A stretch of 64,000 nucleotides of DNA from Symploca sp. SIO2C1 (GCA_010692635.1 JAAHGL010000024.1:1-64000), one strand, 5' to 3'; positions 13,123-35,456 are shown, counted from the first letter of the stretch. Notes: generated by a model not told the origin, from the letters alone. A program made the numbers and translations.

Positions 13123-16100
13123 ATGAGCGAACTGCTAACTCCACCAACAACAACTCCAACTGAGGACAACCAGGAAAATGGTCACCCAACAGAGCATAAT
13201 GTTCCGGATGTGAGTAAAGCCTCACCGCTAGCAAAGTTCTTCTTCCTCAATACGGTTTTTGCAATTCTGTTGTGCGTACTGCTAGTGATTGGGGGTTTGC
13301 TGGGTGCAGCAAGCATGGTAAAAGAAGGAGATCCGGATATTAAAGTTGCGATCGCATCTGTTCAGACTGTTTGGGGGGGTGCTGATCCTGAAACGATCGA
13401 AAATCAAGTTACGGACAAGATTGAAAAAGAACTTAAATCTCTCAAAGGTCTTAAAGATCTCAGTAGTGCTTCCTTCGAGGGTATGTCCCTGATTAATGTG
13501 GAATTCACTGCTGAATCACCAATCAATGAGTCGATCTCCCTGGTAAGAGCCGAAGTTGATGAAGCTAAGCCGGAGTTACCCACGGAGGCTGAACAACCTA
13601 AGGTAGAACAAGTTTCCGTCCAAGATACTCCGATACTCACCATTGGTTTGTTTGGCAACATTGATATAGCAGTCTTGAGTAGTGCGGCCCAGGAAATTGA
13701 AGACTTGTTGGAAAAAGTCCCTAATGTGAGAAAAGTGGACTTGGGTGGGGAACGGGAGGAAGTGATCCATGTACAGCTCAAACCCTATCGCATGCTCACC
13801 CTGGGCATCTCTTCAACTCAAGTGAGTAATGCCATCCAGAACGGCAATCGAGATACTCCTTGGGATCAGGTGGAGAGCGATGAAATTGGAACCCAGGTAC
13901 GTTTGTACGGTAGATATCGCACTCTGGAGGATTTACGGAGTTTGCCGGTGGCTCGTCTTGGTGGTGCGGAGGGGAGAGTGGTACTACTAGGAGAGATTGC
14001 TGAAGTGCGCCGGGATTTAGAACGGGAAAGGAATCGTGCTTTTATTAGTTCCGAGCAGGGGGAGTTTCAAACGGTAATTAACGTGGATGTTGTCAAAGTT
14101 CCAGGTACAGACACCATTCAGGTAATTAGGAATTCCTTGGCAGCGATTGAAAAAGCAAAACAAAACCCCAGTATTTGGCCCTACGGCATGGAGTACAAGG
14201 TGATCAACACCGATGCCGATCTTATTAATGAAGAACTCACTAATCTCTTCAGCAATGCTTCCCAAGGGGTACTGGGAGTCTTTATCGTCTTGTTGCTTGC
14301 TTTGACTTGGCGTGAAGCAATTATCGCTGGTTTATCGATTCCTCTTACTTTCCTCGGTGCGATCGCAGTTCTTTGGCTGTTTGGTAATACCCTTAACAGC
14401 ATGGTGCAGGTAGGCATGATTCTAGCATTAGGACTGCTAGTGGATGTGTTTATTCTCATGATGGAAGGAATGCATGACGGAATTTTTGTTGAAGGCTTAA
14501 CCTTTAACCAGGCAGCTCTCAAAACCGTCAGAACCTATGCTGCTCCAGCTTTTTCCGGTCAGGTAACTACTATTTTGGCAATGGCGCCCTTGATGGCAAT
14601 CAGCGGCACTATGGGGCAATTTATCCGCTTGATTCCCATTAGTGCCATTGTTTGCCTGCTCCTGAGTTTCCTCATCGCCCTCTTTGTGGATATCCCTTTA
14701 TCCCGCTACTTGCTAGCCAATGTTAAAAAAGGCACAAAAAAGACTTTTATCGACCGAGTTACTGAAGTTGCCTCTGAGAGTTTTAGACAATGGAGTCTGG
14801 GAGTCACGGTGCGTAACAAAACTACTGCTCGCCTCTGGACTTTGGTAGCCATCAGCCTGTTTGTCTGTACCACAATTCTGGTGGGAAATGTCCCAGGAAC
14901 TCTGTTTCCCAACGATGATGGACGTAAGCTCAGTGTTAATGTGGAGATGCCTCCGACAACTACCTTGAATAGTTCCCAGGAAGTAGCAGATGAGTTGGGG
15001 GAAATCTTGCGCAGCAAAAACTACTTTGAAAGCGTCATCAAATTTGTTGGTCAACGTAGCAACTTAGTACAAGAAAGTGGTATTAAGCCTAGCACAGGCA
15101 ACTACCTCCTCGGCTTTTCTACGATCTTCACTCCTAAAACTGAACGGGAGAAGATGTCCTTTGAATACCTTGATGAGCTGCGGGGAGAATTGAGCCAAGC
15201 CTTACGCAACTATCCAGGAGCCTCTCTGGTAGTAAACGAGCAAGGTACAGGAGAGGGAGGAGACCCCATTGAGGTTAAACTCACCGGCAACAATATGGAG
15301 GAGTTGCGACGCATTTCTGGGGAAGTACAACTAGCTCTAAGGCAGATTCCCGGCAGTGTGGATGTCCGGGATGACCTCGGTTCCTTGCGTCCGGATATAA
15401 AATTCCGTCCCCGACGGGAGGCAATGGATTTCTACGGTTTGTCTCCAGAGGATCTTGCCATGCAGGGACGCTATATCATGACTGATAATGATATTGGTGA
15501 CTTTCCCATTGGTGGTGGTAAGGAAGACTTAGAAATTCGCCTCAGCACCGCTTGGCCATCACGAGAGGGTGGAGTTGGTGGACCGACACGACAGGATGAA
15601 CTCAGGACAATTCGTATTTTAACCTCCCAAGGGGAGACAATTTCTGGAGAGCAGGTACTCGAACAAGAAATTGGTGAGGCTCCTCTGTCAATTACCCACA
15701 AAGATAGTCAACGGACAGTAACCGTTCTAGCCAAAAATAAAAGTCGCACAGTGGGGGAGATTTTGGGGGACTTGGAGCCAAAGCTCAAAGAAATGCAACG
15801 CCAGTGGCCCCAAGGCTATTCTTATCAGTTCAGTGGTGAGGCTCAAACCCAAAGTGAAACCTTTGGTTCAGCCCTCCAAATGGCTGGTGTAGCTATCTTC
15901 CTCGTGTTTGCAGTACTAGTGATTCAATTTGGTTCTTTCACCCAGCCATTCATCATTATGCTGGCAATTCCCTTCGCTTTAATTGGGACATTTGGCTTTT
16001 TCTTCCTCCTGTGGATTCCGATCTCTTTCCCTGCAGTAATCGGTATCATTTCCCTGGCAGGAATTGTGGTGAATGACTCAATTGTGATGGTGGAGACAAT

Positions 16101-20318: not shown

Positions 20319-22103
20319 TTAACAATTCTGGGTGGTAGCTCCAGGGAATAAACTTTTCTCTGTTGTGGCTCTATTAAATTGCATTAAGTTACCATCGGCA
20401 GTCATCGGGCTGATTTCAGTAAGTTCAATTACTGGTGATTTATACCAATTCTCCCCTTGTACCAACGTATGGACTTGCCAATTGGGTGAAGTTTGCGGAT
20501 AATCACTACGGTAATGTCCTCCTCTGCTTTCTGTGCGCCAAGCAGCACTTTTGAGGATTAAGTAGGCAATATCAAGCAAATTGAGGGTTTCAGTACAAGT
20601 GCGGAGTTGCTGTTGAGCATTGTCTGAGGTTAATTGCACCGTTTGGTTAGGTGTTAGATTAAGCAAGTATTGAGTTACTTCTAAAGCTGCTAATTGACGA
20701 CGCCAAGAACTAACTTGGGCAATTGCAACTTCTAATGCTTCTTGGGAACGACAAATTCCTGCACTTTGCCACATTAGCTGAGGCAAATTTTGCCGTACTG
20801 AGGTAATCCACTCCATTTCTGTTTCCCAGTCTCCTGACTCAGTGATTACAGAAGGAGACTCTTCTGGTATCAAATTAGGTTCAATTTCCAGCCGAGACAG
20901 TTGAGCTGCAAAAACTACGCATTCTAATAGAGAGTTGCTCGCTAAACGATTGGCACCTTGAACTCCTGTACTGGCTGTTTCACCAATGGCATATAGTCCT
21001 TTAATGGAAGTTTCACTATGTACATCGCTAACGATTCCTCCCATCCAGTAATGAGCCGCAGGAGCCACTGGAATCGGTTTACTAAAAACATCAATACCCC
21101 AGTGTTGACAAACTTTGATGATATTGGGGAAACGGTGAGAAATTTGTTCAGGGGGAATGGGCTCCAAGTCTAAGTAGACACAGTATGGTTCTGGTGCTGT
21201 TTGCTGTAAGTGATTAAAAATTGCCCGACTAACTACATCTCTTGGTGCGAGTTCCCCATCAGAATGATAATTGAAAGCAAAGCGCTGTCCTTGGGAATCT
21301 ACTAAATGGGCGCCTTCTCCTCTAACTGCTTCACTAATCAGAAAGCGAGGTGCTCCTGCTTGGGTTAAAGCGGTGGGATGAAATTGGACAAACTCTAAAT
21401 CCCTTACTATCGCTCCCGCACGCCAAGCCAGTGCGACTCCGTCTCCGGTACTTACTGTGGGATTAGTGGTTTGGGAAAATACTTGACCACCACCACCAGT
21501 TGCTAAAATGACCGCAGATGCTTTTATCCAGCTAATTTGCCCTTGGGAAAGTATACTAATCCCCTGACAATGACCAGTTGAGTCATCAATCCACAAACTC
21601 AAAGCCAATGCTGGGGAAATTACTTGGATATTAGGACGCTGCAAGACTTGTTCGATGAGAGTATCGACGATTGCTCGCCCTGTAGTATCGGCAGAATGGA
21701 GGACACGGGGACGGGAGTGAGCCGCTTCTAGAGTCATGGCTAGCTTTTTTCCTTGGCGATCGAAAGCTACTCCCATTTCTACGAGAGACTCAATTGCAGC
21801 AGAGCCATTCTCGACTAAAAATTTTACTGCCTCCGGTTCGCAAAGACCCGCACCAGCTTTGATGGTATCAGCAAAATGTAACTCTGGTGTGTCTGTGGGG
21901 TCAATGGCAGCAGCAATCCCTCCTTGCGCCCAGCTACTTGAGCCAGTTTTGAGGGAATCTTTGGTAATTAAGCCCACTTGTAAATGAGTAGGTAAGCAGA
22001 GGGTGGCATAGAGTCCTGCTGCACCACTACCGATTACCAGGATATCGAACTGAGAAGGATGATGGGAAGGTTGTTTAGTCACTGGGCGATGCTCTCTTTT
22101 CAC
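20319..22103 (-). CDS. nadB: L-aspartate oxidase
   Basis: This FAD flavoprotein oxidises L-aspartate to iminoaspartate, the first step of de novo NAD synthesis. The dinucleotide-binding motif GSGAAGLYATL is near residue 27. SSWAQGGIAAA, EFVQFHPTAL and the active-site region GGIVSDVHSETSIKGLYA are present. The C-terminal helical domain carries RGGHYRSDYP. At 594 residues it is slightly longer than the typical 530-550. Its pathway partner nadA lies at 37.1 kb, not adjacent. Confidence 0.94.
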   Translation of the reverse strand: MKREHRPVTKQPSHHPSQFDILVIGSGAAGLYATLCLPTHLQVGLITKDSLKTGSSSWAQGGIAAAIDPTDTPELHFADTIKAGAGLCEPEAVKFLVENGSAAIESLVEMGVAFDRQGKKLAMTLEAAHSRPRVLHSADTTGRAIVDTLIEQVLQRPNIQVISPALALSLWIDDSTGHCQGISILSQGQISWIKASAVILATGGGGQVFSQTTNPTVSTGDGVALAWRAGAIVRDLEFVQFHPTALTQAGAPRFLISEAVRGEGAHLVDSQGQRFAFNYHSDGELAPRDVVSRAIFNHLQQTAPEPYCVYLDLEPIPPEQISHRFPNIIKVCQHWGIDVFSKPIPVAPAAHYWMGGIVSDVHSETSIKGLYAIGETASTGVQGANRLASNSLLECVVFAAQLSRLEIEPNLIPEESPSVITESGDWETEMEWITSVRQNLPQLMWQSAGICRSQEALEVAIAQVSSWRRQLAALEVTQYLLNLTPNQTVQLTSDNAQQQLRTCTETLNLLDIAYLILKSAAWRTESRGGHYRSDYPQTSPNWQVHTLVQGENWYKSPVIELTEISPMTADGNLMQFNRATTEKSLFPGATTQNC

Positions 22104-22264: not shown

Positions 22265-23953
22265 CTAGGTAATCGTACCGAAACAAGATTCTTTTAGACA
22301 AACCCCTTCAGTGATCTTTTGACCATCTATTTCTAATAGCGCATGTTTATAGTCTAAATGTAGGTCACTTTCCATCGTAGATGTATAGTTACGCAGCACA
22401 CTTGACCAGGCTCCAAAGGTCTTTTGCTCAAACTTTAGGTGGTAGGATTGAGCATTGATCTGGGTGTGGGCACTGGCTTGACGATGATAGGATGCGTCTC
22501 CATGAAGGATTTTTTTCTCTCCATCTTGAGGCAGATTGAGGAGCTTAAAGTAGTTATATTTCTCTTGTCCAAAGGTGGCATCAGCACTCCAAATAATGCC
22601 ATAGTTAGGAAAGAAGGCATGGACAAAATGGTAGCCCCAAAACTTGGGATAGCTACCCTCATAGATCTTGCAATATCCTACTGCAGTTTGAGTCTGGTTT
22701 CCCATGCGCACCGTTCCCAAAAGTTGAGGCTGGTGGATCACTGGATGACTTTCTTTCTCCGCTGGAACACCCCAAGAAAGCTGAGTGGCTACTTGAAAAT
22801 CAATCTCTAAATCAGTTTCAGCCAGACGAATTTTCCCGCTGCAATCGTCCTTAATAATCTGAATATGAGGTTCTGAACATTTGTTTTCAGAGGTGTTGAG
22901 CAGTTCTCTAGAATGTCCTTGAGTATCGCACCACCAAGCAGAGTAGTGTTGGAGTGTTTCAGTTTGAAAATATCGTAGGGCAACGAGAGAACCGTCTTCC
23001 AAGAAAAAGTGATACTGCTCACTGTATACGGGAGTGCGCACGGAAAAATAGGCATCAGGCACCTGAGTAGTTTTGGACTGACAAGGTTTGCGCGCTGTAA
23101 TTAAAGAACCACCAATATTAAGGCTCTCAAACAAGTTATGAATCGTTTGATAGAAGTGACTACGATGATTGTAAACATCCTCACCAAAGGTGCGAACGGA
23201 TTCATTTTTGGATTGAATAAAGTTTTGATAACGCTCTTTGACCCAAGATGTCCATCCCGTTGTTAGATCAATAAAACAAATGTCCGTAAATCCAGCCTGT
23301 TCAAAGTGATGGCGATAGACATCACGAGTCGGTACATAGGGAGCTTGAACCTCATCCCCAAGCTTCGCCTGGATATCTGGTGTCAGGGGAGCGTTAGCAA
23401 CATAGTCTTCAATGTAGATCTGCCCACCTTCCTTCAGGGAACGAAAACAGACATCTAATAAGGCTTGACGATCCTTAATGTGTAGAAAGCAAAGAAAGGA
23501 AATCACGCTGTCGAACGCATTGAGTTCTAGCGCATTTATCACCTGGGGGCTAAGAATACTACCTGTCAAATACTGGATCTTTTGATGCAAACCTACTCGT
23601 TCGGTTAGCTCTCGGGCAATATTGTTAAAGTCTTCTCTCAACTCCACACCCTGAATCTGGCATCCTGTTTTGTGACTGATATAGCGAGCTGGGCCACCCA
23701 CCCCACTACCAATGTCTAACACTTGGGACGTGGAATTTAACTGGAGTGTTTCGATGGCTCGATCACATGCTTTGCTTCCAAAGTAATGGTACTGCTCTAG
23801 GTGACCTAAGTCCAACAAATCTTCAATTTGCAAAACTCCAGTGGCTTTTCCCCGTTGTTCCAGTGCCTTGCGAATACTATAAATCCGCCAATCGTAAATC
23901 AAAGCCTCCTCTTCTGAGAGATGGTTTGGGCTTTGCGTTTGTGGTAGGGTCAT
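22265..23953 (-). CDS. Methyltransferase fused to a lipocalin/CrtC-like C-terminal domain
   Basis: Residues 1-280 are a class I SAM-dependent methyltransferase (VLDIGSGVGGPARYIS, acidic loop VELRED, SFLCFLHI). They resemble small-molecule N/C-methyltransferases of the cyclopropane-synthase or phosphoethanolamine type. Residues 290-562 form a second domain rich in W, Y, H and beta-strand-like segments (FWGYHFVHAFFPNYGIIWSA). This part resembles the tocopherol-cyclase/CrtC-like lipocalin superfamily, an assignment made from texture only. No signal peptide is seen. It is the last gene of a minus-strand block of enzymes. Its substrate is unknown. Confidence 0.7.
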   Translation of the reverse strand: MTLPQTQSPNHLSEEEALIYDWRIYSIRKALEQRGKATGVLQIEDLLDLGHLEQYHYFGSKACDRAIETLQLNSTSQVLDIGSGVGGPARYISHKTGCQIQGVELREDFNNIARELTERVGLHQKIQYLTGSILSPQVINALELNAFDSVISFLCFLHIKDRQALLDVCFRSLKEGGQIYIEDYVANAPLTPDIQAKLGDEVQAPYVPTRDVYRHHFEQAGFTDICFIDLTTGWTSWVKERYQNFIQSKNESVRTFGEDVYNHRSHFYQTIHNLFESLNIGGSLITARKPCQSKTTQVPDAYFSVRTPVYSEQYHFFLEDGSLVALRYFQTETLQHYSAWWCDTQGHSRELLNTSENKCSEPHIQIIKDDCSGKIRLAETDLEIDFQVATQLSWGVPAEKESHPVIHQPQLLGTVRMGNQTQTAVGYCKIYEGSYPKFWGYHFVHAFFPNYGIIWSADATFGQEKYNYFKLLNLPQDGEKKILHGDASYHRQASAHTQINAQSYHLKFEQKTFGAWSSVLRNYTSTMESDLHLDYKHALLEIDGQKITEGVCLKESCFGTIT

Positions 23954-24157
23954 AATTCGTAAGGAGTCTAGGGTAAAAATCAGACTTGGCTGTAGTCAGC
24001 GATTGGTTAACGGAACACTGTCTAGAGGAAAATACAGCTTAGGATGACGGCTTTTGCATTCGTTGGATGGGCTTGAGGGCTGTAATTTGAATGTCCTCTT
24101 TTTGGACAAGACTAGCTTATCTTACTCCCCCAGCTCCCCCAGCGATGGGATATTTTT

Positions 24158-24958
24158 TTATTTGGAAGCCTCTAACCCCATCTGCCGTTCCCACTTACTT
24201 TGGATTTCATCGTAGTTACTGTAGTAGGTTTGGGGGTCAAACCCTGGTAAGGGTTCATAGACATCAATTTCTTCCCACAGGGGAGTCAAGCTCTCTAGTT
24301 GTTCTATCGATTGCTCCACAATTTTTTCTGGTTTTAACCAGTATTTCTTTTCTTCAGCAGTGGCACAAGGTCTAAGTTTGTTTTCATTACCAGTGTCGGT
24401 GGTACTGACGTTGATAAATCGACCCCTAATTAGTCCTTGCCATTCTTCTGACTTGGCTAAATTTTTGATATAGTCCCGTAGGGTATCTTTGGCATAAGTG
24501 TAGGAACGCCAAAAGGGAATTTTGTATTTATCGGTAATGGAACCAAAGGCACACAGAGCAAGGCTGGTTTTGGAACCTCGGCGATGCTCTTGGCTCAGTT
24601 TCGCAATCAGGGGTTCGGCAACGTTGACAAAGGTATGATAGTTGGAAGAAAATATTTCATCATCAACCTCATCTTGAGTTGCTCCAACAGAGGCAATTTC
24701 ACACTCGCTTTCGTATTTAAATTTGCCTACGCCATGAATTAAGATTGTATCTGTAATTCCTTCTAGATTTAGTTGATTAACGGTTTCTTCTGTCGCTTGA
24801 GCGTCAAGGAGATCGACTTGGCAATTGAGAGCAGTAGTTTCCATTGGCGAGCGCGAAATAGCTACGCAAGTGGTATTTTCTTCTTGCAAAAAGTGCTCAA
24901 CAAAGCTGTTACCGACAGCGCCGCTAGCGCCAGTAACGATTACCAGATGAGAATTCAT
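24158..24958 (-). CDS. Short-chain dehydrogenase/reductase
   Basis: This is an NAD(P)-dependent oxidoreductase of 266 residues. The cofactor motif TGASGAVG lies at residues 9-16 and the active-site YTYAK (YxxxK) near residue 180, with a preceding Ser in CAFGSITD. The C-terminal tail (SLTPLWEEIDVYEPLPGFDP) is unusual and may shape the substrate pocket. The gene lies third from the 5' side of the methyltransferase in a co-directional block, which suggests it reduces or oxidises an intermediate of the same pathway (inference). Confidence 0.82.
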   Translation of the reverse strand: MNSHLVIVTGASGAVGNSFVEHFLQEENTTCVAISRSPMETTALNCQVDLLDAQATEETVNQLNLEGITDTILIHGVGKFKYESECEIASVGATQDEVDDEIFSSNYHTFVNVAEPLIAKLSQEHRRGSKTSLALCAFGSITDKYKIPFWRSYTYAKDTLRDYIKNLAKSEEWQGLIRGRFINVSTTDTGNENKLRPCATAEEKKYWLKPEKIVEQSIEQLESLTPLWEEIDVYEPLPGFDPQTYYSNYDEIQSKWERQMGLEASK

Positions 24959-25043
24959 AGTTTTTTTGTATTTACTTAAATTTGAGGTGCTGGGTTTTAT
25001 TCCTCAACCCAGCCTAAAAAGGTGACATGCTCTGAGGAATTGT

Positions 25044-25793
25044 TCAATTCTCAAGCAAAATTGCAGAAGCAATAAATGCTCCCCGCTCTGCCATTGTGTA
25101 CAAACCTACATGATGGGATATATCTTGGGGGTGAATAGCTGTTTTGGGTAGACCCAATTGAGTTACCATTTCTGGGGTCATGTCGAAAGTTGAGCAACCC
25201 TCAGTATATACGGCAATCTCTTTGAGAGTGGGAGTAAGGTCATGATTTCTGGCGGATACAATGGTGACAACGAAATCCATCACGCAGATATCGGTGCAGA
25301 TTCCTACTACTACTAAGGCTTCTAGTTTATTTTGATTGATCCATTTGAGTAAGGTGTTATTACCTGTATCTACCTCAATAGAACCGATAAAGCCATTGAT
25401 GCAGTCTTTTTCAATTAAGGTGGTGTTGGGATCTTTCTCTAACCATTTTAGTTGAGGAACTAGCTTTTCTTCCCCTGAGCCCTTCTCGCAATGGGTAGGA
25501 TAAGGTAGTTCTGGTTTACCTGGTTCGTGGGTATCTAGAAATGCCAAGATAGGCCAACCTTTAGCAGTAAATGCTTTAGCTAAACGGTTAGTTTCTGCCA
25601 CCATCGTCTCTATTTGTTCGTTGGGTTCTGTTGGCGCTAGGGCACCATAACCAATAGTGCAGAAGCCGTTAACTACATCGACAACAATTAAACCTGTCGG
25701 GCGATCGCCTACAGTATAGGGTTGAGGGTCAATGGGTAAAGCCGCTTCAATTGCTGCTAATGTTGTATCGGGAGTGGTTAGAGTAGTTACCAT
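25044..25793 (-). CDS. Isochorismatase-like cysteine hydrolase (nicotinamidase type)
   Basis: This cytoplasmic amidohydrolase has 249 residues. The Asp is in LIVVDVVNGFCTIG, followed by FLDTHEPGKPELPYPTHC (metal-site-like Asp/His) and the catalytic Cys in VVVGICTDICVMDFV. The pattern fits nicotinamidase-like members of the superfamily better than isochorismatase. Either nicotinamide salvage or hydrolysis of a pathway-specific amide is possible. It lies 85 bases upstream of the SDR gene in the same block. Confidence 0.8.
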   Translation of the reverse strand: MVTTLTTPDTTLAAIEAALPIDPQPYTVGDRPTGLIVVDVVNGFCTIGYGALAPTEPNEQIETMVAETNRLAKAFTAKGWPILAFLDTHEPGKPELPYPTHCEKGSGEEKLVPQLKWLEKDPNTTLIEKDCINGFIGSIEVDTGNNTLLKWINQNKLEALVVVGICTDICVMDFVVTIVSARNHDLTPTLKEIAVYTEGCSTFDMTPEMVTQLGLPKTAIHPQDISHHVGLYTMAERGAFIASAILLEN

Positions 25794-26006
25794 TGTTATT
25801 TTTAGGTGACTTTACTTCCTTTTTGCTAAGACGCATTGAAATTCTGATTCACAAATCCTATATCCTATGCTCCTCAATCTTTTTGTCGATATCAATATCA
25901 CAGTTTAAATGCAGAACAGTTTATCATGTCTAATAGAGAACAATCTCAATTACAATCCAAAGCCCTATGATAATACTTTATCTGAAAATCTCTCAAATCT
26001 AAGGAT

Positions 26007-27134
26007 TTATCGATCTACATAGAGATGTTGATATTGATGAAACCGTTGTCGTGCTTGCAAGAAATCCCAAGAAATACAGGCAATTTCTAGATGTCGATTA
26101 CCTGTAAAAGGTTGCCGCCCATGCATAATTCTAGAGTCATTCATCAGCAGCAGATCTCCCGGTTCGAGACTAAAGCAGTATTGGTAGATGGGATTTTTTA
26201 GATAGGAAAAGAAGGTTGTATAGGCTGCATAAAATTTTTCCATCTGGTCAAATGGTAGTTTCCAACTGTAGCTGTGAGAATTGGCAAAATTGATTCTTGT
26301 GACCTTTCCGGAGTTGTCCAATTCTAGGATAGGCTGAGTTCTACAATAAAAGTACTCCCATTTTGTGTAAACCTGCTTGAACTGGATGGGAGTTTGAGTT
26401 AAAAGCTCAAAATAGTCTGGATGTTGCTGACGAAAATCATTCACAACTCGAAAACCGTCTATTATCAGTGACTCCCCACCAGAGGCAGCATTTTCCAAAC
26501 AATACAAACTTGTGAGCAGAGGGGGAGTGTGCCAATAGGTATAGTCTGTATGAAAGCTCATCCCCTTTCCAGTCTCGGCTAAGTCTTTTCCTTCCTTTGT
26601 CGTCTTTGATGGTGCGAACAATCCGTAGTCACTGCTGTAGATTGGTCCAATGGATTCGAGCATTGGCTGCAAATCCTTAGATTCTATATTATGCAGTACT
26701 GTAAATCCTACGGTAAAAAGTTGATTGAGCCACAATTGAGGATCGGATACCAGAGCTTCCTGTAACCTGGATATATTTGCTTCTATCCAAGCTTTATCCC
26801 ACAGGATCTCATTGCTCTGGGAAGCAGATTCAGGCTGTTGATTGGTTCTACCCGGTTCTGATTCCTCATCATAAGCGTGACTCAGTAGCCAAGAGACTGG
26901 GAATCTACTGTGGTGAGGAGGATCTTCGTTCCAGGTAATCCTTAGTTCTCCATCTTCCTCTTCCCAGGATAATGGTTCTGGAGGTGAAGTGCGATCGCTA
27001 ATTTCATAGAGCTTTTGAAAAGAAGTTGGATGACTGCACTGGGGACATAAGCAATTATCTCGCAACCAGATGTAGTGGAAACGTTTGCCTGCGACTGTTA
27101 AAAAGCTCTGTTTGGTGATTACATTACTTGTCAT
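26007..27134 (-). CDS. Gamma-butyrobetaine/trimethyllysine hydroxylase-like 2-oxoglutarate dioxygenase
   Basis: This Fe(II)/2-oxoglutarate oxygenase of 375 residues has the BBOX/TMLH two-domain layout. The N-terminal DUF971-like zinc domain has Cys28, Cys30, Cys33 (RDNCLCPQC) and a His near residue 86. The catalytic TauD domain has the iron triad His195-x-Asp197 (MSFHTDYTYW) and His338 (RIMHGRQPFTG), with Arg347 as the probable 2-oxoglutarate anchor. A strong GGAGG ribosome site precedes the ATG. In this context it probably hydroxylates an amino-acid-like or betaine-like intermediate (inference). Confidence 0.85.
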   Translation of the reverse strand: MTSNVITKQSFLTVAGKRFHYIWLRDNCLCPQCSHPTSFQKLYEISDRTSPPEPLSWEEEDGELRITWNEDPPHHSRFPVSWLLSHAYDEESEPGRTNQQPESASQSNEILWDKAWIEANISRLQEALVSDPQLWLNQLFTVGFTVLHNIESKDLQPMLESIGPIYSSDYGLFAPSKTTKEGKDLAETGKGMSFHTDYTYWHTPPLLTSLYCLENAASGGESLIIDGFRVVNDFRQQHPDYFELLTQTPIQFKQVYTKWEYFYCRTQPILELDNSGKVTRINFANSHSYSWKLPFDQMEKFYAAYTTFFSYLKNPIYQYCFSLEPGDLLLMNDSRIMHGRQPFTGNRHLEIACISWDFLQARQRFHQYQHLYVDR

Positions 27135-27195
27135 TAAAACCTCCTGATTATTCTTTGGTGCAATACAGTGTAAGATTTACAACTAGCAGAAAATT

Positions 27196-28602
27196 TTAGG
27201 GCTTTTCTAATTCCTGACATTCTTTAACCAGGATTTCCATTAGTTTAGGTGGCAGACGCTGATAGGATAAATCTAGTTGCTGGCATTGTCTCGACAACTT
27301 TTGATATTCGCTCCTATCTAGACGAGCTTCTTGCAGATAGCAGTTAATCGCCTCTCCAGTAAATCCTCGTTCAAGACATTTTTCCAAAGCAAGTTTACTT
27401 TCTGCGATTTCCCCCACACATTCAAAAGCATTGTGAGCTTCTAAGCCCATCAATTGTCGATAATAAAGCTGTAAATCAGGACGATTAAACAAATTTTCCT
27501 TGCCTAAGAAGTGTTGAAGCTCTTGTGATTGTTCTGGAGTCACATAAGCCATATAAGATAAATAAACGTAAGCACATTTAGGGCAGGATTTACACCAAGG
27601 AGGATTGCTGTTACAGGAGTAAACTAATTTGAGGTCATCTTTTCTGACTTTTTGGGATAGCAGCTGATAGACTAGAGTATCTGACATAGGTTTAAGCAAA
27701 CTAAAAATAGCCAGATTGCTGATAAACTCTTGTTGAATATATTCCTCATAAAGAATTTCACATTCGGTACTCTTACACCAAGCGTGATTAATAATCTGAT
27801 TATCTACCTTAACTTGTTCGCTATCAGCACTTTTTTCATTCCCGTAACAAAGTTGGGTATAGTTCTCTTGAAGGATGATGGGAAGAATGCCAAACACTCC
27901 ATAAGCTAGGGGTAAGTCCTCATAGTTTCTAATCTCAGAAACTTCTACACCTTCTACGCCATGCAGCTTAGCTGCGGGAGAATTAAGGAATGACTCGATA
28001 ATATACTGACGATGAATCTGGTGTGGCGGATTTTGGAGTTGATAAAGATGTTGTTCGTGCAGTTCAAATAACTTTTCAGGATTAGCATGGGTGTGGAGGT
28101 TGATGCTGAAACTATCAAAAAGAATATGATTATCGTCCAACAGACGAGCCATTAAAAGACTATCTTTTCCACCACCATTACAAAGAAGCAAAGGAGTCTC
28201 CCCTGGAACTAGAGTTACTGCTGCTATGTTCTTTGTGGTAACATCTTGAGCAATAATTTCAGCTCCTCGATAATCTAAATTACCAGTTTCATACCGCCAC
28301 TGTCCCAAACATTGTTCAACACTTATTTGCCAGAGATTTTGGATATTTTTTGTCCAATATTTGCCGTATTTTCCTAAATCAAGATGTGTTGGTTTTAAAC
28401 TTAATATTTTTAACCCATGAAATAATAAAATATGGAAATATATTTTTTCCATATATTCTTGACCATACTCAGCTTCAAGCTGATGAAAGTCAACTGTTGA
28501 ATACCAAAGAGTAGTTGTAAAAGTTATTTCATTGTATTGGCAAAGTAAAGTAAGATTGTGTTTTGAGCGAGTGCAATTGACAAGTTTTAAAATAATATCC
28601 AT
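27196..28602 (-). CDS. PP-loop ATP-pyrophosphatase-like protein (MurL-like)
   Basis: This 468-residue protein carries the PP-loop LLLCNGGGKDSLLMARL near residue 143. A downstream cysteine cluster, CNSNPPWCKSCPKCAYVYL (about 338-356), may bind metal. The combination of GGGKDS and WCxxCPKC recalls MurL, the ATP-dependent UDP-MurNAc-L-Ala-L-Glu epimerase, and its relatives; this is recall, not a search. ATP-driven activation or epimerisation of a carboxylate would fit. The ATG at 28602 (MDIILK) is preferred over the TTG at 28608. It overlaps nothing and follows the MDR gene by 29 bases. Confidence 0.65.
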   Translation of the reverse strand: MDIILKLVNCTRSKHNLTLLCQYNEITFTTTLWYSTVDFHQLEAEYGQEYMEKIYFHILLFHGLKILSLKPTHLDLGKYGKYWTKNIQNLWQISVEQCLGQWRYETGNLDYRGAEIIAQDVTTKNIAAVTLVPGETPLLLCNGGGKDSLLMARLLDDNHILFDSFSINLHTHANPEKLFELHEQHLYQLQNPPHQIHRQYIIESFLNSPAAKLHGVEGVEVSEIRNYEDLPLAYGVFGILPIILQENYTQLCYGNEKSADSEQVKVDNQIINHAWCKSTECEILYEEYIQQEFISNLAIFSLLKPMSDTLVYQLLSQKVRKDDLKLVYSCNSNPPWCKSCPKCAYVYLSYMAYVTPEQSQELQHFLGKENLFNRPDLQLYYRQLMGLEAHNAFECVGEIAESKLALEKCLERGFTGEAINCYLQEARLDRSEYQKLSRQCQQLDLSYQRLPPKLMEILVKECQELEKP

Positions 28603-28631
28603 TATCAATATTTTGAAGCTTCAGTAATATC

Positions 28632-29699
28632 TTATTTCCCAATACTCAGAACAACTTTGCCAAAGAAACCTTTCCCTTGAAAAAAATCCTGAGCTTCCTT
28701 CATTTCAGATAATTGAAAAATCTTAGCAACTAAAGGTTTTAACAGACCTTTTTCCAGATATCCGACTAACCTTTGAAACACATCCGCTTCTAGACGTGTT
28801 GCTCCAATCATCTCTAAATCCTTGTAAATCAAATCCCGCAAATCTAGAGCAACCATGGGATTGCCAATAGCTCCACAGGAAATATATCTCCCTCTTGGTG
28901 CCAGAGCTTGAATCATTAAATTAAAATAAGAGTCTCCCACAACATCCAAAGCAACAGTAATTTGATGTTGAGTTAAATTAGATTCTAATTCTTCATCTCG
29001 TCGATAAACATAATCAGCGCCCAAATCTTTAGCAAAACCTTCCTTATTAGCTCCCACAATCGCAATGACTTTGGCTCCTCTAATTTTGCTTAGCTGAATC
29101 AAAGCACTACCTACCCCACCAGAAGCGCCGGTAATTACCACGGTATCTGCCGCTGATATTCTGCCTTTAGTCAGCATATTTTCTGCTGTGGAATAAGCAC
29201 AGGGAAATGTCGCTAACTCAATATCAGACAGGATCGAATTAATTGGATAGACATTAGTAGCAGGAATTACTGCGTATTCAGCAAAACCCCCATCTAATTC
29301 ACTGCCAACATATTGATAGTCGTCTAAAGCGTCATTACGAATCCAACTGTCAACAATAACCCGTTGCTCCAGCAGTCTTGGTTCTACATCCGAGCCAATG
29401 TCTACAACTTCACCAACAATATCAGCACCTTGAATACGAGGAAACTCGGTTCCATGTTGCGTCCAACAAGCAGAACTATCGACATCATTTTCCTTGGTAT
29501 CTTGCAGGATAGCTTGAAAATTATCCTCCGCCGCATACCAACCTGTGCGAGTATTGATATCTGTATTGTTGACTGAACAAGCTCCGACTTTAATTAATAC
29601 TTCTCCCTTTTTTGGTACTGGTTGAGGTACTTGGGTATAGACAAGTTTTTCTGGTCCTCCAAAGCCAGTGAGAATAACCGCATTCATTAACTCAGTCAT
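28632..29699 (-). CDS. Zinc-type alcohol dehydrogenase-like/quinone oxidoreductase (MDR family)
   Basis: This NADPH-dependent oxidoreductase has 355 residues. It has the GroES-like N-domain (GEVLIKVGACSVNNTDINTRTGWY) and a Rossmann domain with VITGASGGVGSALIQL. The structural-zinc Cys cluster is missing, which points to the quinone-oxidoreductase/enoyl-reductase side of the MDR superfamily. It lies 14 bases downstream of the NADAR gene and is probably co-transcribed with the PP-loop and dioxygenase genes. Confidence 0.85.
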   Translation of the reverse strand: MTELMNAVILTGFGGPEKLVYTQVPQPVPKKGEVLIKVGACSVNNTDINTRTGWYAAEDNFQAILQDTKENDVDSSACWTQHGTEFPRIQGADIVGEVVDIGSDVEPRLLEQRVIVDSWIRNDALDDYQYVGSELDGGFAEYAVIPATNVYPINSILSDIELATFPCAYSTAENMLTKGRISAADTVVITGASGGVGSALIQLSKIRGAKVIAIVGANKEGFAKDLGADYVYRRDEELESNLTQHQITVALDVVGDSYFNLMIQALAPRGRYISCGAIGNPMVALDLRDLIYKDLEMIGATRLEADVFQRLVGYLEKGLLKPLVAKIFQLSEMKEAQDFFQGKGFFGKVVLSIGK

Positions 29700-29713: not shown

Positions 29714-30154
29714 TTACGAATTCCGCAACTTAGTCCGCACTTGCATCAAAATCTCTCCTAGGCGATTTTTCCCACTCCCGTCTTTACCACAGCCCCAATA
29801 ATAATCTTGAGGAGCATTTTCTACAATTAATTCTTCTCCCGTACTTAACAAAATTTTCCCAATATCCTGATGAGTTTGAAACTTACCAAATAAACCTCGC
29901 TCCATCACATCTTCTTTGACTTCTTCCCAATCTTCACGCAGAGGGCGACTGCGCTCCCGTCCCATTTTGGCTGCATCAGCAGGAGTTTGAGCTAATCTAA
30001 TTGCTTCTAGATGTTCAGTCCCCACAAACTTTTGAGCTTGGAAATAATGCTCTGAAGTTTGCCACCAGAGCCCATCAAGTTCAAAACCGTGGGGAGAGAA
30101 GTTGGAGAAACAACCATAAGGCTTTTCTGATTCATCATAAAAGTAAATGGTCAT
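29714..30154 (-). CDS. NADAR family protein (YbiA-like)
   Basis: This is a 146-residue NADAR-superfamily enzyme. The family includes YbiA/RibX-type N-glycosidases that act on riboflavin intermediates, and enzymes that process ADP-ribosylated nucleobases. Motifs are GCFSNFSPHGF, WQTSEHYFQAQKF, GRERSRPLREDW and DYYWGCGKDGSGKNRLG. It is the first gene of the block that runs down to 22.3 kb. No DarT-type toxin is adjacent. Its link to the following enzymes is by position only. Confidence 0.88.
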   Translation of the reverse strand: MTIYFYDESEKPYGCFSNFSPHGFELDGLWWQTSEHYFQAQKFVGTEHLEAIRLAQTPADAAKMGRERSRPLREDWEEVKEDVMERGLFGKFQTHQDIGKILLSTGEELIVENAPQDYYWGCGKDGSGKNRLGEILMQVRTKLRNS

Positions 30155-30260
30155 TGTTGGTTAGCTCACAGACGAAGTTGTAAATGTCTTTGGGTTCGGA
30201 ACTTACTACGAACAATTATGGCAATTGACATACTCCCCGCGCTGAAGCGACGGGGATTCT

Positions 30261-31421
30261 TTACGCTTCATTGACGGACGCTACCGAGGTAGCCTTACTC
30301 TGTCTCGACGTACATTTAGAGTCGTGGTAATGCCCTATCCCGACTTTTTTTATATTTACCGAGGCGTTCTCGTCTCGGTCGTGTTCTGTGCCACAGTTGA
30401 GGCAAAGTACGGAACGCACCGATAAATCAATCTTGCCCCATTTGTAGCCACAATCAGAGCAAGTTTGGCTAGTTGGTTCCCATCGACTGATAACCACAAA
30501 CTTGCGTCCATACTTTTCAGACTTTGCCTCAACCAAGACCCGGAATTCTCGCCATCCTTGCTGACTAATTGCTCTAGACAATTTGCGGTTTTTGACCATA
30601 CCTGACACGTTCAAATCGTCCAAAACGATAGTTTGGTTTTCACTAACGACTTTGGTTGACAGCTTATGCAGGAAGTCTTTCCTGGTCTCAGCAATCTGAT
30701 TGTGCAATTTGGCAATAAGAATTCTAGTTCTACCTCTGCGTCTTGCTCCGTTTACCTGACGTGCAAGCTTCTTCTGAAGCTTGCGTACCCTACGGTCTAA
30801 CGCTGTGTAGCTGGGGCTTACAACTTTTTCCCCATTGCTCATCACAGCAAAAGTTTTAACCCCTAAATCAATTCCGATGCTTTGGTTTTTAACATCAATT
30901 TGAACAGGTTCTACTTCTACTACAAAGCTCAGAAAGTAACGGTTAGCGCAGTCCTTAATTATTGTGACTGAGCTAGGTTCTGACGGCAACTCTCTAGACC
31001 AAATCGGCTTAACAATCCCGACTTTTGCTAGGTAAACACCATCATCTTTTAGAGAAAAACCGCCACGAGTAAGTCTTGCGGACTGACTGGATGTGCGCTT
31101 TTTGAATTTGGGATAGCCAACTTTGCGCCCTTTCCTCTTCCCTTTACAGGAATCAAAAAAGTTCTTGAAAGCTATCTCCAAATCAGCTACAGACTGTTGT
31201 AGAGGTATGTTCGATACCCCGCCTAACCAAGCTCTACCTGGTGTCTTTTTTGCCTGAGTGATAACAATCTTTTGAAGTTCAGCCGACTTGGGTTTTTTCT
31301 CAGATTGTTTGCAGATTGCCAGAGCATCGTTATACACGACACGGACGCAACCGAACAACCGAGCTAAGCTCTGTTGCTGTCGGTCTGTTGGGTAGAAACG
31401 ATACTGGTATCTTGCTTTCAT
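30261..31421 (-). CDS. tnpB: TnpB RNA-guided nuclease of an IS200/IS605-type element
   Basis: This is an omega-RNA-guided endonuclease of 386 residues starting MKARYQYRFYPT (ATG at 31421; the upstream extension lacks family similarity). RuvC-I Asp185 is in IGIDLGVKTFA. The zinc ribbon has CSDCGYKW and CLNCGTEHDRDENASVNI, the latter with RuvC-III Asp350. At RuvC-II the usual Glu (VLEDLNV) is Asp268 (IVLDDLNVSGM), a conservative change at a catalytic position that may weaken cleavage. The reading frame is full length. It lies upstream of the NADAR block. Confidence 0.9.
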   Translation of the reverse strand: MKARYQYRFYPTDRQQQSLARLFGCVRVVYNDALAICKQSEKKPKSAELQKIVITQAKKTPGRAWLGGVSNIPLQQSVADLEIAFKNFFDSCKGKRKGRKVGYPKFKKRTSSQSARLTRGGFSLKDDGVYLAKVGIVKPIWSRELPSEPSSVTIIKDCANRYFLSFVVEVEPVQIDVKNQSIGIDLGVKTFAVMSNGEKVVSPSYTALDRRVRKLQKKLARQVNGARRRGRTRILIAKLHNQIAETRKDFLHKLSTKVVSENQTIVLDDLNVSGMVKNRKLSRAISQQGWREFRVLVEAKSEKYGRKFVVISRWEPTSQTCSDCGYKWGKIDLSVRSVLCLNCGTEHDRDENASVNIKKVGIGHYHDSKCTSRQSKATSVASVNEA

Positions 31422-31538
31422 CGCTGTGCTAGGATTGGTCTGTATCTTGATTATATATTGGTCTATAGAAGTCGAAGATCGTGAATGCTCTAAAAGGTGT
31501 CTCAAGACGTCGTTATGGGCAGGCTGGCTTTAAAAAAC

Positions 31539-31580
31539 CGCACGGCAAAACAGCTTTGTGGAGTCCCAGCTATTTTGCCG
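31539..31580. repeat. Imperfect inverted repeat in the tnpB upstream region
   Basis: CACGGCAAAA-C-AGCT and AGCT-ATTTTGCCGTG face each other across about a dozen bases. This can form a strong hairpin inside the left part of the TnpB element. Confidence 0.6.
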
Positions 31581-31692
31581 TGTCTGTTGGCGGCGCTCCT
31601 ATTGAAGTGCTTATACAGTACATCAAGAATCAAGAAAAGCCGTCCTAGAAGGACGGGGCTTGAATCCCATATTTTTGGTCAATAGTAGCAAA

Positions 31693-31796
31693 CTAGTACC
31701 GCTGGGCGGAATTAAGAATTAAGAATTAAGAATGCTTATAGAGTAAGGATTCTATCGATCTCAAACTGGTGGGTTATTTCCGCCGCGCTGTACTAG
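31693..31796 (-). mobile_element. MITE-like element (CTAGTA ends), copy 2
   Basis: This is an inverted copy of the element at 7215-7326, 104 bp long. It shares GGGTTATTTCCGCCGCGCTG and the GATTCTATCGATCTC core, and has three AATTAAG heptamers. It lies just outside the left end of the TnpB element, downstream of the AraC gene. Confidence 0.75.
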
Positions 31797-31849
31797 GACG
31801 ATTTCTAGAATAGGTAAGGATTTCATAGGAAAAGGGTTGCTACACACCC

Positions 31850-32755
31850 CTACTTGCTCTCAACAGCTGAAACATTCGTACCTATCAAACCTGCCGTATT
31901 GCCCCACTGGCGAGGTGATTGTCCAAAATACCGACGGAAATCTCGACTAAACTGGGACTGGCTGGAGTACCCTACCTGATATGCCGCTTCACCAACTGTA
32001 GTTCCATTGGCAATGAGCCTCGATGCATCATTGAGACGATGGAGTTTGATGAACTGAATGGGGGAGTAAGTCGTAACTTCTTTGAACTTGCGGTGAAACA
32101 CCGCGCGGCTCATACCTGCCTGCTTGGCTAAATCGTCAATCGAGATGGCTTCGTGAAGATTAGATCTCAGAAAGGTCAGTGCCCGCGATATTTTCTGCAT
32201 TCCCGCAAAGGCTTGGCGAATTGAGGAACCAGCCTTGCCTCGAAGAACGGCAAACATCAGTTCTTTCATCCTGCCGTTGCTGAGCATGGTAAGAGCAACA
32301 GGATCATCTAGCAACTCCAACATGCGCCCCAGTGCCTCCGTAAATTCGTCGTCCCATTTAACCACCGTCAGCCCAGGCATTACCTCGGTGCCGGAATCAC
32401 TGGAACTGTCTATGGCTGCTATCTCAAGGACAGTCTCGACCATCGTGCGGGTCTCAATGCTCAGCAAAAAGCCTAGAAGTGGTTTTTCCGGCGAGGCCTC
32501 GACTACCTCAGCTTCTACAGGAAGGGGTCTCGTACAGCACAAATATTGGTTCTCATCGTAGATATGTGTTGTACCGCTCAAGTATGCCCGTTTACTACCT
32601 TGAACAATGGCACAAATGCTGGGCTCATATACTCCCAGTATTCGTTTCACAGGATTACTTGTTCGATATAGCTGTAATCCCTCCAGTGGCGTGTTAGTCG
32701 CACCCTCTTCAACCGTGTGTCGATCGATAAGCTGGATAATTTCACTTTTTTTCAT
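31850..32755 (-). CDS. AraC-family transcriptional regulator
   Basis: This is a DNA-binding regulator of about 301 residues. The N-terminal AraC_N-type ligand domain (about 10-170) includes GVYEPSICAIVQGSK. The C-terminal double helix-turn-helix carries SIDDLAKQAGMSRAVFHRKF and VGYSSQSQFSRDFRRYFG. The start at 32755 (MKKSEIIQ) is preferred to the ATG at 32773, because it leaves the strong dyad at 32772-32814 in the promoter region. It is divergent from an alpha/beta hydrolase gene, which it probably controls. Confidence 0.9.
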   Translation of the reverse strand: MKKSEIIQLIDRHTVEEGATNTPLEGLQLYRTSNPVKRILGVYEPSICAIVQGSKRAYLSGTTHIYDENQYLCCTRPLPVEAEVVEASPEKPLLGFLLSIETRTMVETVLEIAAIDSSSDSGTEVMPGLTVVKWDDEFTEALGRMLELLDDPVALTMLSNGRMKELMFAVLRGKAGSSIRQAFAGMQKISRALTFLRSNLHEAISIDDLAKQAGMSRAVFHRKFKEVTTYSPIQFIKLHRLNDASRLIANGTTVGEAAYQVGYSSQSQFSRDFRRYFGQSPRQWGNTAGLIGTNVSAVESK

Positions 32756-32771
32756 ACATCTAAAATGGTTC

Positions 32772-32814
32772 ATTTTGCCTATTTTTTCACCTCTGTGAGA
32801 TAAATAGGCAAAAA
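32772..32814. promoter_or_regulatory. Operator-like dyad between araC-type regulator and hydrolase
   Basis: ATTTTGCCTATTT and AAATAGGCAAAAA form a 12/13-bp inverted repeat. An inner TCAC...GTGA dyad sits in between. The site lies in the divergent promoter region and is a likely binding site of the adjacent regulator (inference). Confidence 0.5.
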
Positions 32815-32917
32815 AATGAGATAAAAAGAGCTGTTTTATTGGTAATCAAGAGACTAATCTACATATAGATTAATTACTCTGCTCCACTTACAAGAATATG
32901 TAGTTAAGGACAAGAAC

Positions 32918-33886
32918 ATGTCAAACCTAATCCTTAATCCAGGAAAAAACGAAATTTCTTTTAAAAGCCAGGGATATACCCTTGCTGCAAATCTCTATGT
33001 ACCCGAAGGTTTTGATGCCTCCGGTAGCTATCCAAGCGTGATCTATTCCCCTCCCTTCAACCAGGTGAAGGAACAGAGCGGTGCTATCTATTGCCGCAAG
33101 CTAGCTGAGAGAGGCTATGTTGCGCTGGCATTCGACCATATCGGCTATGGCGACAGTGAAGGCGAAATTCGTAACTATGAAAATTCTTTTATCAAGATGG
33201 AGAGTATTCGGGACGGAGTTAGTTTTCTCGGCACTTTACCCTTTGTCAATCGCGATCGCCTTTTTGGTCTTGGCATGTGCGCTAGTGGTGGTTACATAGC
33301 TCTGGTAGCAACCACCGACAAACGGCTCAAAGCGATCGCTACTATCTCCGGGATGATGAGCAATCAGACAAGTTATTTCAAAACTATGGATCGCGAAACT
33401 GTCTGTGCTGTCATCGCTACAGCGAATACGGGACGGCAGAAATTTTATGAAACTGGTGAGGTTGAATACATGGACGCGCTTGGTATGGAGAATTTAGATC
33501 TTGATACCCTCAGCAAGGATTCTGCCCAGTATGAAGGCTATCAGTTTTACATGACCAAGCGGGCTGGGGCACAGACCTATCCGAATTACTCGCACCAGTC
33601 ACCCACCTTTTTGCTAGAAGCGCCGATGCTGGCTGATGCCCAGTCCTATGCACCCTATCTCTACATGCCCTATATCGGCATCTATGGTGAGAAGGCGTTG
33701 CAGGACACCGGCCCGTTGACAGTGAAATTCTATGAGGCTGCGAGCGAACCAAAAGAGCTAGTTGAAATTTCAGGTGCAAGCCATGTGTCGCTGTATGACA
33801 TCGAAGAAGATGTGGATCGCGCTGTTGCGGCAATGGATACGTTCTTCCAGAAACACAGCAGGGGTTCATTAATTAATAATGGATAA
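32918..33886 (+). CDS. Alpha/beta hydrolase (YcjY/DLH-like)
   Basis: This is a 322-residue serine/cysteine hydrolase. The oxyanion-hole region is IYSPPFNQVKEQ and the nucleophile elbow is GLGMCASGGY, where Cys sits at the usual nucleophile place (GxCxSG), as in dienelactone-hydrolase-like members. The acid and His are probably in YGEKALQDTG and ISGASHVSLYD. An AAGGA ribosome site lies before the ATG. Divergence from an AraC-type regulator suggests substrate-inducible expression. The substrate is unknown. Confidence 0.85.
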   Translation: MSNLILNPGKNEISFKSQGYTLAANLYVPEGFDASGSYPSVIYSPPFNQVKEQSGAIYCRKLAERGYVALAFDHIGYGDSEGEIRNYENSFIKMESIRDGVSFLGTLPFVNRDRLFGLGMCASGGYIALVATTDKRLKAIATISGMMSNQTSYFKTMDRETVCAVIATANTGRQKFYETGEVEYMDALGMENLDLDTLSKDSAQYEGYQFYMTKRAGAQTYPNYSHQSPTFLLEAPMLADAQSYAPYLYMPYIGIYGEKALQDTGPLTVKFYEAASEPKELVEISGASHVSLYDIEEDVDRAVAAMDTFFQKHSRGSLINNG

Positions 33887-33913
33887 TGAATAAGGAGAGG
33901 CTTTAAAGCGGAT

Positions 33914-33952
33914 TGATTAATTATCAATTATCAATTATCAATTATCCATTGG
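33914..33952 (+). repeat. ATTATCA heptamer tract
   Basis: Four tandem copies of TTATCAA/TTATCCA lie between the hydrolase and the Uma2 gene. Confidence 0.7.
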
Positions 33953-34025
33953 TAAGCCATAGCAATTTGCGCCCATTGAAGCGAAGATGAAATTGTCAGC
34001 TCTGAAAGTCTTTGATTTTAATCAT

Positions 34026-34589
34026 ATGGTACAGACACCAAAAAAGCTGTTGACACTAGAGGAATTTCTGGAATTACCAGAAACGCAACCAGCTAGTCAA
34101 TATATTAACGGAGCAATAATTCAGAAAGCTATGCCCCAAGGGAAGCACAGTATTCTTCAACGGGAATTGAGTTTTGTCTTAACAGCCACATTCAGATCAG
34201 ATAAAACAGCACAAGCTTTCCCGGAATTGCGCTGTACCTTTGGGGGGCGATCTATTGTTCCAGATCTGGCAATTTTCCGTACTCAGCGCATTCCCAGAGA
34301 TAGTAATGGGGATGTTGCCAATGTATTTAACCTCCATCCAGATTGGACAATTGAAATCCTCTCACCTAATCAAAGCCACACTAGAGTTGTTCGTAATATT
34401 CTCCACTGTCTTGATCATGGTACTCAAATGGGCTGGCTGCTAGATCCAGATGAATCTTGTATTTTTATCTATGGTGCAGATAAATTAGTTAAGGTGTTTG
34501 AAAAGACTGATTTGGTATTGCCAGTGCCAGAGTTTGCCCAAGGGCTTCATCTTACAGTGGGGGAGATATTTAAGTGGCTCAAATCATAA
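34026..34589 (+). CDS. Uma2 family protein
   Basis: This predicted PD-(D/E)XK nuclease-like protein has 187 residues from the ATG at 34026 (MVQTPKKLLTLEEFLELPE, the usual family start). The family core is visible: QYINGAIIQK, RSIVPDLAIFR (Asp), DWTIEILSP (Glu) and MGWLLDPDESCIFIY. Function is unknown. It is one of three Uma2 genes in the window, and its sequence differs clearly from the others. Confidence 0.87.
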   Translation: MVQTPKKLLTLEEFLELPETQPASQYINGAIIQKAMPQGKHSILQRELSFVLTATFRSDKTAQAFPELRCTFGGRSIVPDLAIFRTQRIPRDSNGDVANVFNLHPDWTIEILSPNQSHTRVVRNILHCLDHGTQMGWLLDPDESCIFIYGADKLVKVFEKTDLVLPVPEFAQGLHLTVGEIFKWLKS

Positions 34590-34622
34590 GGGAAGGAGGT
34601 AATTATCCATTATTGAATGTAA

Positions 34623-35456
34623 TTACAGACGAAAATGTAAAATTCCCCACTGCATATATCCTTGCTGGTAATATTCAATCCAAGGTTCAATGCTTTTGAG
34701 AGTTTTCTGGGCAAATTCAGTTGAGGTAATTTCCACTACCTCCTTATATCGCTTCCTAACTTCCTCTCCAAATCGCCGATAGTGAATCGGCACATTTTGG
34801 GAAAGATCAATAAAATTTAATTCCTCAAACCCTAATGCTTTAGCTGTCTGGCGATAAAAACTCAAAGAACCCATATTATCAATTCCCAGACGCTCAAAGG
34901 CTGGTTGTAACAAGCCTGGTGGACAAGTTTGACTTTGCATAGGGTCAGTAAAAATAAATTCACCCCCTGGCTTTAATATCCGCTTAACTTCCTCAAACAC
35001 ATGAGTGCGATCGCTGCTGTGTAGAATAGCATCTTGAGACCAAACAATATCAAAGCTATCATCAGGGTAAGGAATCTCTTCAAAACTCCCTTGAGTTACC
35101 TCAAGCAAATCTGCTAAACCCTGTTCCTGATTCAGTTGACGGTTGCGCTCATTTTGCAGCTCGCTCAAATTAAGACAGCACACCTGACAACCATAGGTTT
35201 TTCCCAGATACCGCCCTGCACCACCATAACCAGCACCCAAATCAATTACTCGCGAGTTCTGATTGAGATTTTCCAGAGTTTGAGCAATGGTTTCTACAGT
35301 ACGTTGCGAAGCATTATGGATGGGTTCATCAGCTTGCTTGTAAATCCCATAATGAATGTGTTCCCCACCCCAAATAGTGGCATACAAACGGTCAGTTTCT
35401 GAGCCATCGTAGTAGGTTTGAGCAATTTTGACAGCTTCGGAATAAGTAGTATTCAT
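34623..35456 (-). CDS. Dimethylglycine/sarcosine N-methyltransferase-like enzyme
   Basis: This is a 277-residue SAM-dependent methyltransferase. The length and order of motifs match dimethylglycine N-methyltransferase (second enzyme of glycine-betaine synthesis in halotolerant cyanobacteria): YYDGSETDRLYATIWGGEHI, VIDLGAGYGGAGRYLG, NERNRQLNQEQGLAD, IVWSQDAILHSSDR and FIFTDPMQ. It could make the osmolyte glycine betaine from sarcosine/dimethylglycine. The partner glycine-sarcosine methyltransferase gene is not in the window. A different small-molecule substrate is possible. Confidence 0.8.
   Translation of the reverse strand: MNTTYSEAVKIAQTYYDGSETDRLYATIWGGEHIHYGIYKQADEPIHNASQRTVETIAQTLENLNQNSRVIDLGAGYGGAGRYLGKTYGCQVCCLNLSELQNERNRQLNQEQGLADLLEVTQGSFEEIPYPDDSFDIVWSQDAILHSSDRTHVFEEVKRILKPGGEFIFTDPMQSQTCPPGLLQPAFERLGIDNMGSLSFYRQTAKALGFEELNFIDLSQNVPIHYRRFGEEVRKRYKEVVEITSTEFAQKTLKSIEPWIEYYQQGYMQWGILHFRL

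Follow-up and report, generated by a model that had tools for sequence, protein, structure and literature searches.

What pathway, if any, is encoded where six enzymes of unrelated families lie side by side on one strand of a cyanobacterial contig? The block in question spans positions 22265–29699 of a 64,000 nt stretch from Symploca sp. SIO2C1 (GCA_010692635.1 JAAHGL010000024.1:1-64000), the whole of which was analysed and is called the window here. A preliminary description listed six co-directional enzymes, and the six ORFs are indeed intact, lie on the minus strand and agree with the families named: an MDR-family reductase (28632–29699; Pfam; closest solved structure 4j6f, E 6e-85), a MurL-like PP-loop protein (MURL, 27196–28608), a BBOX-like Fe/2OG dioxygenase (26007–27134), a nicotinamidase-like cysteine hydrolase of the isochorismatase fold (ICH, 25044–25793; PF00857), an SDR oxidoreductase (24158–24958) and a large, two-part methyltransferase (MT, 22265–23953). 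Orthologues suggest that MURL starts at the ATG at 28602 rather than at the TTG. The strong GGAGG site reported earlier is an AGGAGG ribosome-binding site at 27145–27140, on the minus strand and five bases 5′ of the dioxygenase ATG. The several short gaps also described are found between MDR and MURL (23 bp) and between MURL and the dioxygenase (61 bp), and a further gene, NADAR, lies 14 bp upstream of MDR, but the later gaps are wider (213 bp from the dioxygenase to ICH, 85 bp from ICH to SDR and 204 bp from SDR to MT), and close spacing is limited to NADAR-MDR-MURL-dioxygenase. Promoter and terminator scans gave signal no higher than in shuffled sequence.

Gene order in other genera defines the unit more sharply. 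An alignment of MURL, searched against one genome per GTDB species, retrieves eight loci, every one of them from a filamentous cyanobacterium: Moorena and Okeania contribute two each, and Hydrocoleum, Trichodesmium erythraeum, Symploca and Spirulina one each. The order SDMT-NADAR-MDR-MURL-BBOX-ICH-SDR is shared by Okeania (L062) and Trichodesmium (L065), although in Okeania a small unrelated gene separates BBOX from ICH. All seven genes are found in the window, where the first, an SDMT-like N-methyltransferase (34623–35456, minus strand), is parted from NADAR (29714–30154, minus strand) by a 4.5 kb insert (30155–34622). According to Pfam, the insert holds TnpB (30261–31505, minus), an AraC regulator (31850–32773, minus), a hydrolase (32918–33886, plus) and a Uma2-like gene (33987–34589, plus); SDMT and NADAR adjoin in Okeania, Trichodesmium, Symploca and Moorena. 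TnpB, formerly taken as the boundary of the block, is on this comparison inside the ancestral operon and not at its edge, and NADAR and the SDMT-like gene belong to the operon as well. Because gene order is kept in other genera, the block is more than a chance array.

The large methyltransferase has to be removed from the set. It is missing from the Okeania L062 and Trichodesmium L065 operons and is flanked by nadA and nadB in Moorena (G017:C4), in G001:C79 and in an Okeania locus (L081); it is thus a gene of a nadA-MT-nadB cassette, and the operon's own N-methyltransferase is the one at 34623. An AlphaFold model of MT (one sequence) had a mean pLDDT of 34 and was set aside. The proposal that co-occurrence of the PP-loop and dioxygenase genes would serve as a probe proved sound, in that a 2OG oxygenase (BBOX or PhyH) adjoins MURL in every close relative with a complete locus. 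The operon core is neither scattered in relatives nor composed throughout of housekeeping orthologues. The earlier idea of an undescribed small-molecule pathway is supported: gene order is conserved, and the papers searched do not describe any comparable nad-linked cluster.

The operon is also linked to de novo NAD genes. In the window it lies between nadA (quinolinate synthase; 37121–38086, minus strand; 82–94% identical to nadA of relatives) and nadB (L-aspartate oxidase; 20319–22103, minus strand; PF00890 and PF02910), and most relatives likewise have it next to nadA, nadB or nadC; besides the window, such neighbours occur in Okeania, Trichodesmium, Symploca and three Moorena. The Symploca order (G003) is nadA-nadB-SDMT-NADAR-MDR-MURL-PhyH-ICH-SDR. 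In Moorena, nadA-nadB-SDMT-NADAR heads a cluster of ~30 kb with nadC also inside. In Okeania the operon is preceded by nadC and followed by nadB; in Trichodesmium both nadA and nadB precede it, and a fragment of nadB follows. The Trichodesmium MAG (L065:3423-5264 and 15112-15738) has its upstream nadB read as two pieces and the fragment after SDR, as a result of either decay or assembly error. The Hydrocoleum contig (L064) carries NADAR-MDR-MURL-PhyH-BBOX and, at 11.9 kb, is short, with no nad gene within reach, an exception that counts against a nad-based pathway.

Single genes of the operon were traced as well. SDR is confined to loci of this kind and has no relative in the solved-structure search. 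Of 386 genomes surveyed across the phylum, five contain it; four of the five have it near nad genes, and the fifth holds a 42% homologue that is not near them. ICH lies ≤23 kb from nadB in all 12 of the genomes that bear it (12 of 99), the full 23 kb being reached in Moorena. The window genome has a second ICH (G000:C464, L098), 97% identical to the window copy and away from nad genes. As a control, nadA and nadB are ≤15 kb apart in 6/6 locus-bearing genomes tested. Among genomes without the locus, the two are close only in four (G001, G019, G020 and G025), hundreds of kb or more apart in six closed or nearly closed genomes, and on different contigs of drafts in the remainder, where distance is not readable; all of these genomes share kinship and the counts are not independent events.

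Operon-linked nadB copies cluster by host lineage, while oxygenase alleles cross families (88% identity between Moorena and Hydrocoleum, 80% between the window and Okeania, 55% between the window and Moorena), and common descent alone is therefore insufficient to account for the linkage. The extra nadB copies of other genomes group apart from the rest, and three of the four stand in nadA-MT-nadB cassettes; the nadB of these cassettes (L053, L054 and L081) makes up a distinct clade with full support, as would be expected had the cassette been transferred. A duplicated nadB was considered as proof of a dedicated pathway and rejected for the window, whose genome (G000) yields one match each for nadA and nadB. 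Both are consequently housekeeping genes as well, which counts against a nad-based pathway.

The middle of the locus is variable. PhyH replaces BBOX in Symploca G003, and in one genome (G015) a methyltransferase, a GST-like protein and a glutamine amidotransferase replace MDR-MURL-oxygenase. In another (G002:C661; L096 and L097), the interval from ICH to a second nadB holds an Fe-ADH, an isocitrate-dehydrogenase-like enzyme, an amidotransferase and a Cys/Met-family PLP enzyme, and the Moorena locus additionally carries an NRPS-PKS. The locus thus resembles a constant framework, made up of the nad genes, SDMT, NADAR, ICH and SDR, that holds exchangeable cargo. The block appears as the main part of an exchangeable, putative biosynthetic operon, SDMT-NADAR-MDR-MURL-oxygenase-ICH-SDR, which in filamentous cyanobacteria of the sea is placed amid the genes for de novo NAD synthesis. 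Side features of the Moorena loci L045 (7462-19560), L047 and L048 are a flavocytochrome-c-like enzyme, an AMP-binding/KS/AT/KR/TE synthase, a sulfotransferase-like protein and a cobalamin-binding MetH-like protein that lacks the N-terminal domains; by eye, Leu replaces the usual Asp of amino-acid adenylation domains in the Moorena adenylation domain. In Spirulina CS-785/01 (L067), a MURL of 58% identity lies in a different cluster, with a PLP decarboxylase, an asparagine-synthase-like protein, PhyH, a RutB-like hydrolase, an AlaDH-like protein and an SDR.

The nad link, NADAR and the nicotinamidase-like nature of the hydrolase, none of which the preliminary description recognised, point to pyridine-nucleotide metabolism. 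NADAR exceeds the cutoff of the YbiA-type family (TIGR02464, 161.5 against 73.7 bits) and matches the E. coli YbiA structure (2b3w, E 4e-41), from which an N-glycosidase activity is predicted. In ICH, mapped on PncA, the D39, K129, C170 triad and the metal ligands D87xH89...H101 are invariant in ten orthologues. The nicotinamidase score PRK11609 is not reached by ICH (39.9 of 174 bits), which counts against a nad-based pathway; among solved structures, nicotinamidases and other members of the fold score alike. The operon NADAR and SDMT are extra paralogues, and the window genome has three further, more distant copies of SDMT.

Trichodesmium, Moorena and other large cyanobacteria of the sea probably use the operon to make a small molecule, which is perhaps pyridine-derived. 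A pathway on quinolinate or nicotinate best accounts for the nad neighbours, the presence of an N-glycosidase family member and a hydrolase resembling nicotinamidase, and we tentatively favor a modular pathway that draws on quinolinate/nicotinate synthesis and leads to a methylated, hydroxylated, pyridine-derived metabolite. From the observed linkage, gene order and variable cargo we infer the following chemistry. NadB and NadA would supply quinolinate and, via NadC, nicotinate mononucleotide; the putative NADAR N-glycosidase and ICH may free or adjust the pyridine carboxylate, which the SDMT-like enzyme could then N-methylate. The MurL-like enzyme would use ATP to give an activated carboxylate, MDR and SDR would alter the oxidation state, and the variable Fe/2OG oxygenase would provide a hydroxylation step. 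The product would be kin to trigonelline and homarine as the simplest cases; a literature search returned no report of either compound in Trichodesmium.

The main alternative is a pathway to an N-methylated amino acid or betaine, in which the SDMT-like enzyme would methylate an aliphatic amino acid, perhaps from aspartate, MURL would activate or epimerise the carboxylate and the oxygenase would hydroxylate. Both SDMT and the BBOX/TmpA/TMLD oxygenases come from families that work on amines and betaines, and the group on which MurL acts is an amino-acid carboxylate (PMC8788868). Moreover, in 5/6 loci examined, members of a sister MURL clade (~30% identical and closer to MurL) have EgtD and an OvoA-type 5-histidylcysteine sulfoxide synthase as neighbours; this association with histidine-betaine genes instead of nad genes counts against a nad-based pathway. 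The five loci (L085, L086, L088, L089 and L090) place a PP-loop enzyme in a thiohistidine-like setting. Set against these points is the aromatic cage of the dioxygenase. The enzyme has the GBBH_N (GBBH-like_N) and TauD architecture, matches TmpA (6npb, E 1.5e-48) and human BBOX (E 2e-40) and retains the HxD...H metal site, in common with BBOX, TmpA and trimethyllysine dioxygenases. It differs from them in falling below every cutoff of the curated equivalogs of the group (234/400, 230/415 and 196/268 bits) and in the cage itself, which in human BBOX holds the trimethylammonium group and consists of Y177, W181, Y194 and Y366. The aligned positions are Y, A, E and C in the window, Okeania and Trichodesmium proteins. 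With three of the four residues replaced (W181A, Y194E and Y366C), the case for a trimethylammonium or carnitine-like betaine as substrate is weakened. Homoserine betaine, a Trichodesmium solute, was considered as a candidate, and the cage argues against a trimethylammonium substrate of this kind for the oxygenase. An amino-acid or betaine pathway would also leave NADAR, ICH and the nad linkage unexplained, and we regard it as doubtful.

It is also conceivable, if improbable, that the locus serves NAD homeostasis, recycling or repairing pyridine nucleotides and yielding no secreted or stored metabolite. Such a role would suit one genus (g11), where NADAR, an FMN reductase, a MoCF-domain protein, ICH and nadB are grouped and the rest of the operon is absent, but the rare and patchy distribution, the swapped oxygenases and the Moorena NRPS-PKS suit specialised metabolism better. 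We likewise attach little probability to the nad region being an insertion hot spot that merely tolerates mobile cargo, its biosynthetic genes having no chemical tie to NAD. The locus repeatedly contains TnpB, XisH/XisI-like and Uma2-like genes and its cargo varies, yet ICH and SDR each still adjoin nadB where the rest is absent (SDR and nadB stand together in G368, for example), and this locus brings together nadA and nadB, which most relatives keep apart. That NADAR is an ADP-ribosylation antitoxin or defence gene next to unrelated enzymes is very improbable: in DarT-NADAR operons, NADARs undo the ADP-ribosylation of guanine (PMC11125620), and the protein matches a PADLOC candidate model with 56 bits, in searches of PHROGs and PADLOC that otherwise gave little information, but the window protein is far nearer YbiA (2b3w) than 8bau, and the scan of its neighbours recognised no toxin family.

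If the pyridine pathway is correct, it would connect central NAD metabolism with an undescribed product of Trichodesmium, Okeania, Moorena and their relatives, cyanobacteria that are either major nitrogen fixers of the sea or sources of natural products. Further clusters of this sort could be sought with three clean probes (SDR, the operon-type SDMT and MURL), and two poorly understood families, the YbiA-type NADARs and the MurL-like PP-loop proteins, would gain testable functions. A wider proposal, which we hold with less confidence, is that bloom-forming and reef cyanobacteria have a family of modular pathways in which the de novo NAD route starts pyridine-derived specialised metabolites, with cassettes (MurL-like enzyme and oxygenase; amidotransferase and PLP enzyme; NRPS-PKS) exchangeable among nadA, nadB and nadC and the MurL-like protein acting as a new carboxylate-activating tailoring enzyme.

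How does this operon compare with known systems? Its SDMT is a full-length relative of sarcosine/dimethylglycine N-methyltransferase (NF041675, 340 bits), but is below the cutoff of 550 and forms a separate clade. MURL resembles MurL in its C-terminal part and shares the PP-loop with it, and ATP-dependent carboxylate activation has been proposed for MurL; the GGGKDS loop and a WCxxCPKC motif are invariant among nine MURL orthologues, and carboxylate activation or epimerisation by this putative enzyme is plausible. MURL differs from the MurL epimerase, whose defining reaction is the ATP-dependent epimerisation of a UDP-MurNAc-dipeptide, in scoring far under the curated equivalog (NF041275, 94.7 of 700 bits), in its rarity and in its place in a biosynthetic operon. 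A search of solved structures found no relative of MURL, and AlphaFold models of nine sequences were set aside (mean pLDDT 35). A precedent for NAD as a building block is altemicidin (sbz) biosynthesis, where the PLP enzyme SbzP joins NAD and SAM (PMC11610977). The likeness is that a specialised product would draw on pyridine-nucleotide metabolism, but no SbzP-like enzyme was recognised in the window operon, whose proteins show no PLP domain in domain and profile scans. Plant-type trigonelline synthesis consists of a nicotinamidase and a nicotinate N-methyltransferase. The outline proposed here, nicotinamide hydrolysis followed by N-methylation, would be alike, but the window methyltransferase belongs to a different family and the window operon would add redox and oxygenase steps.
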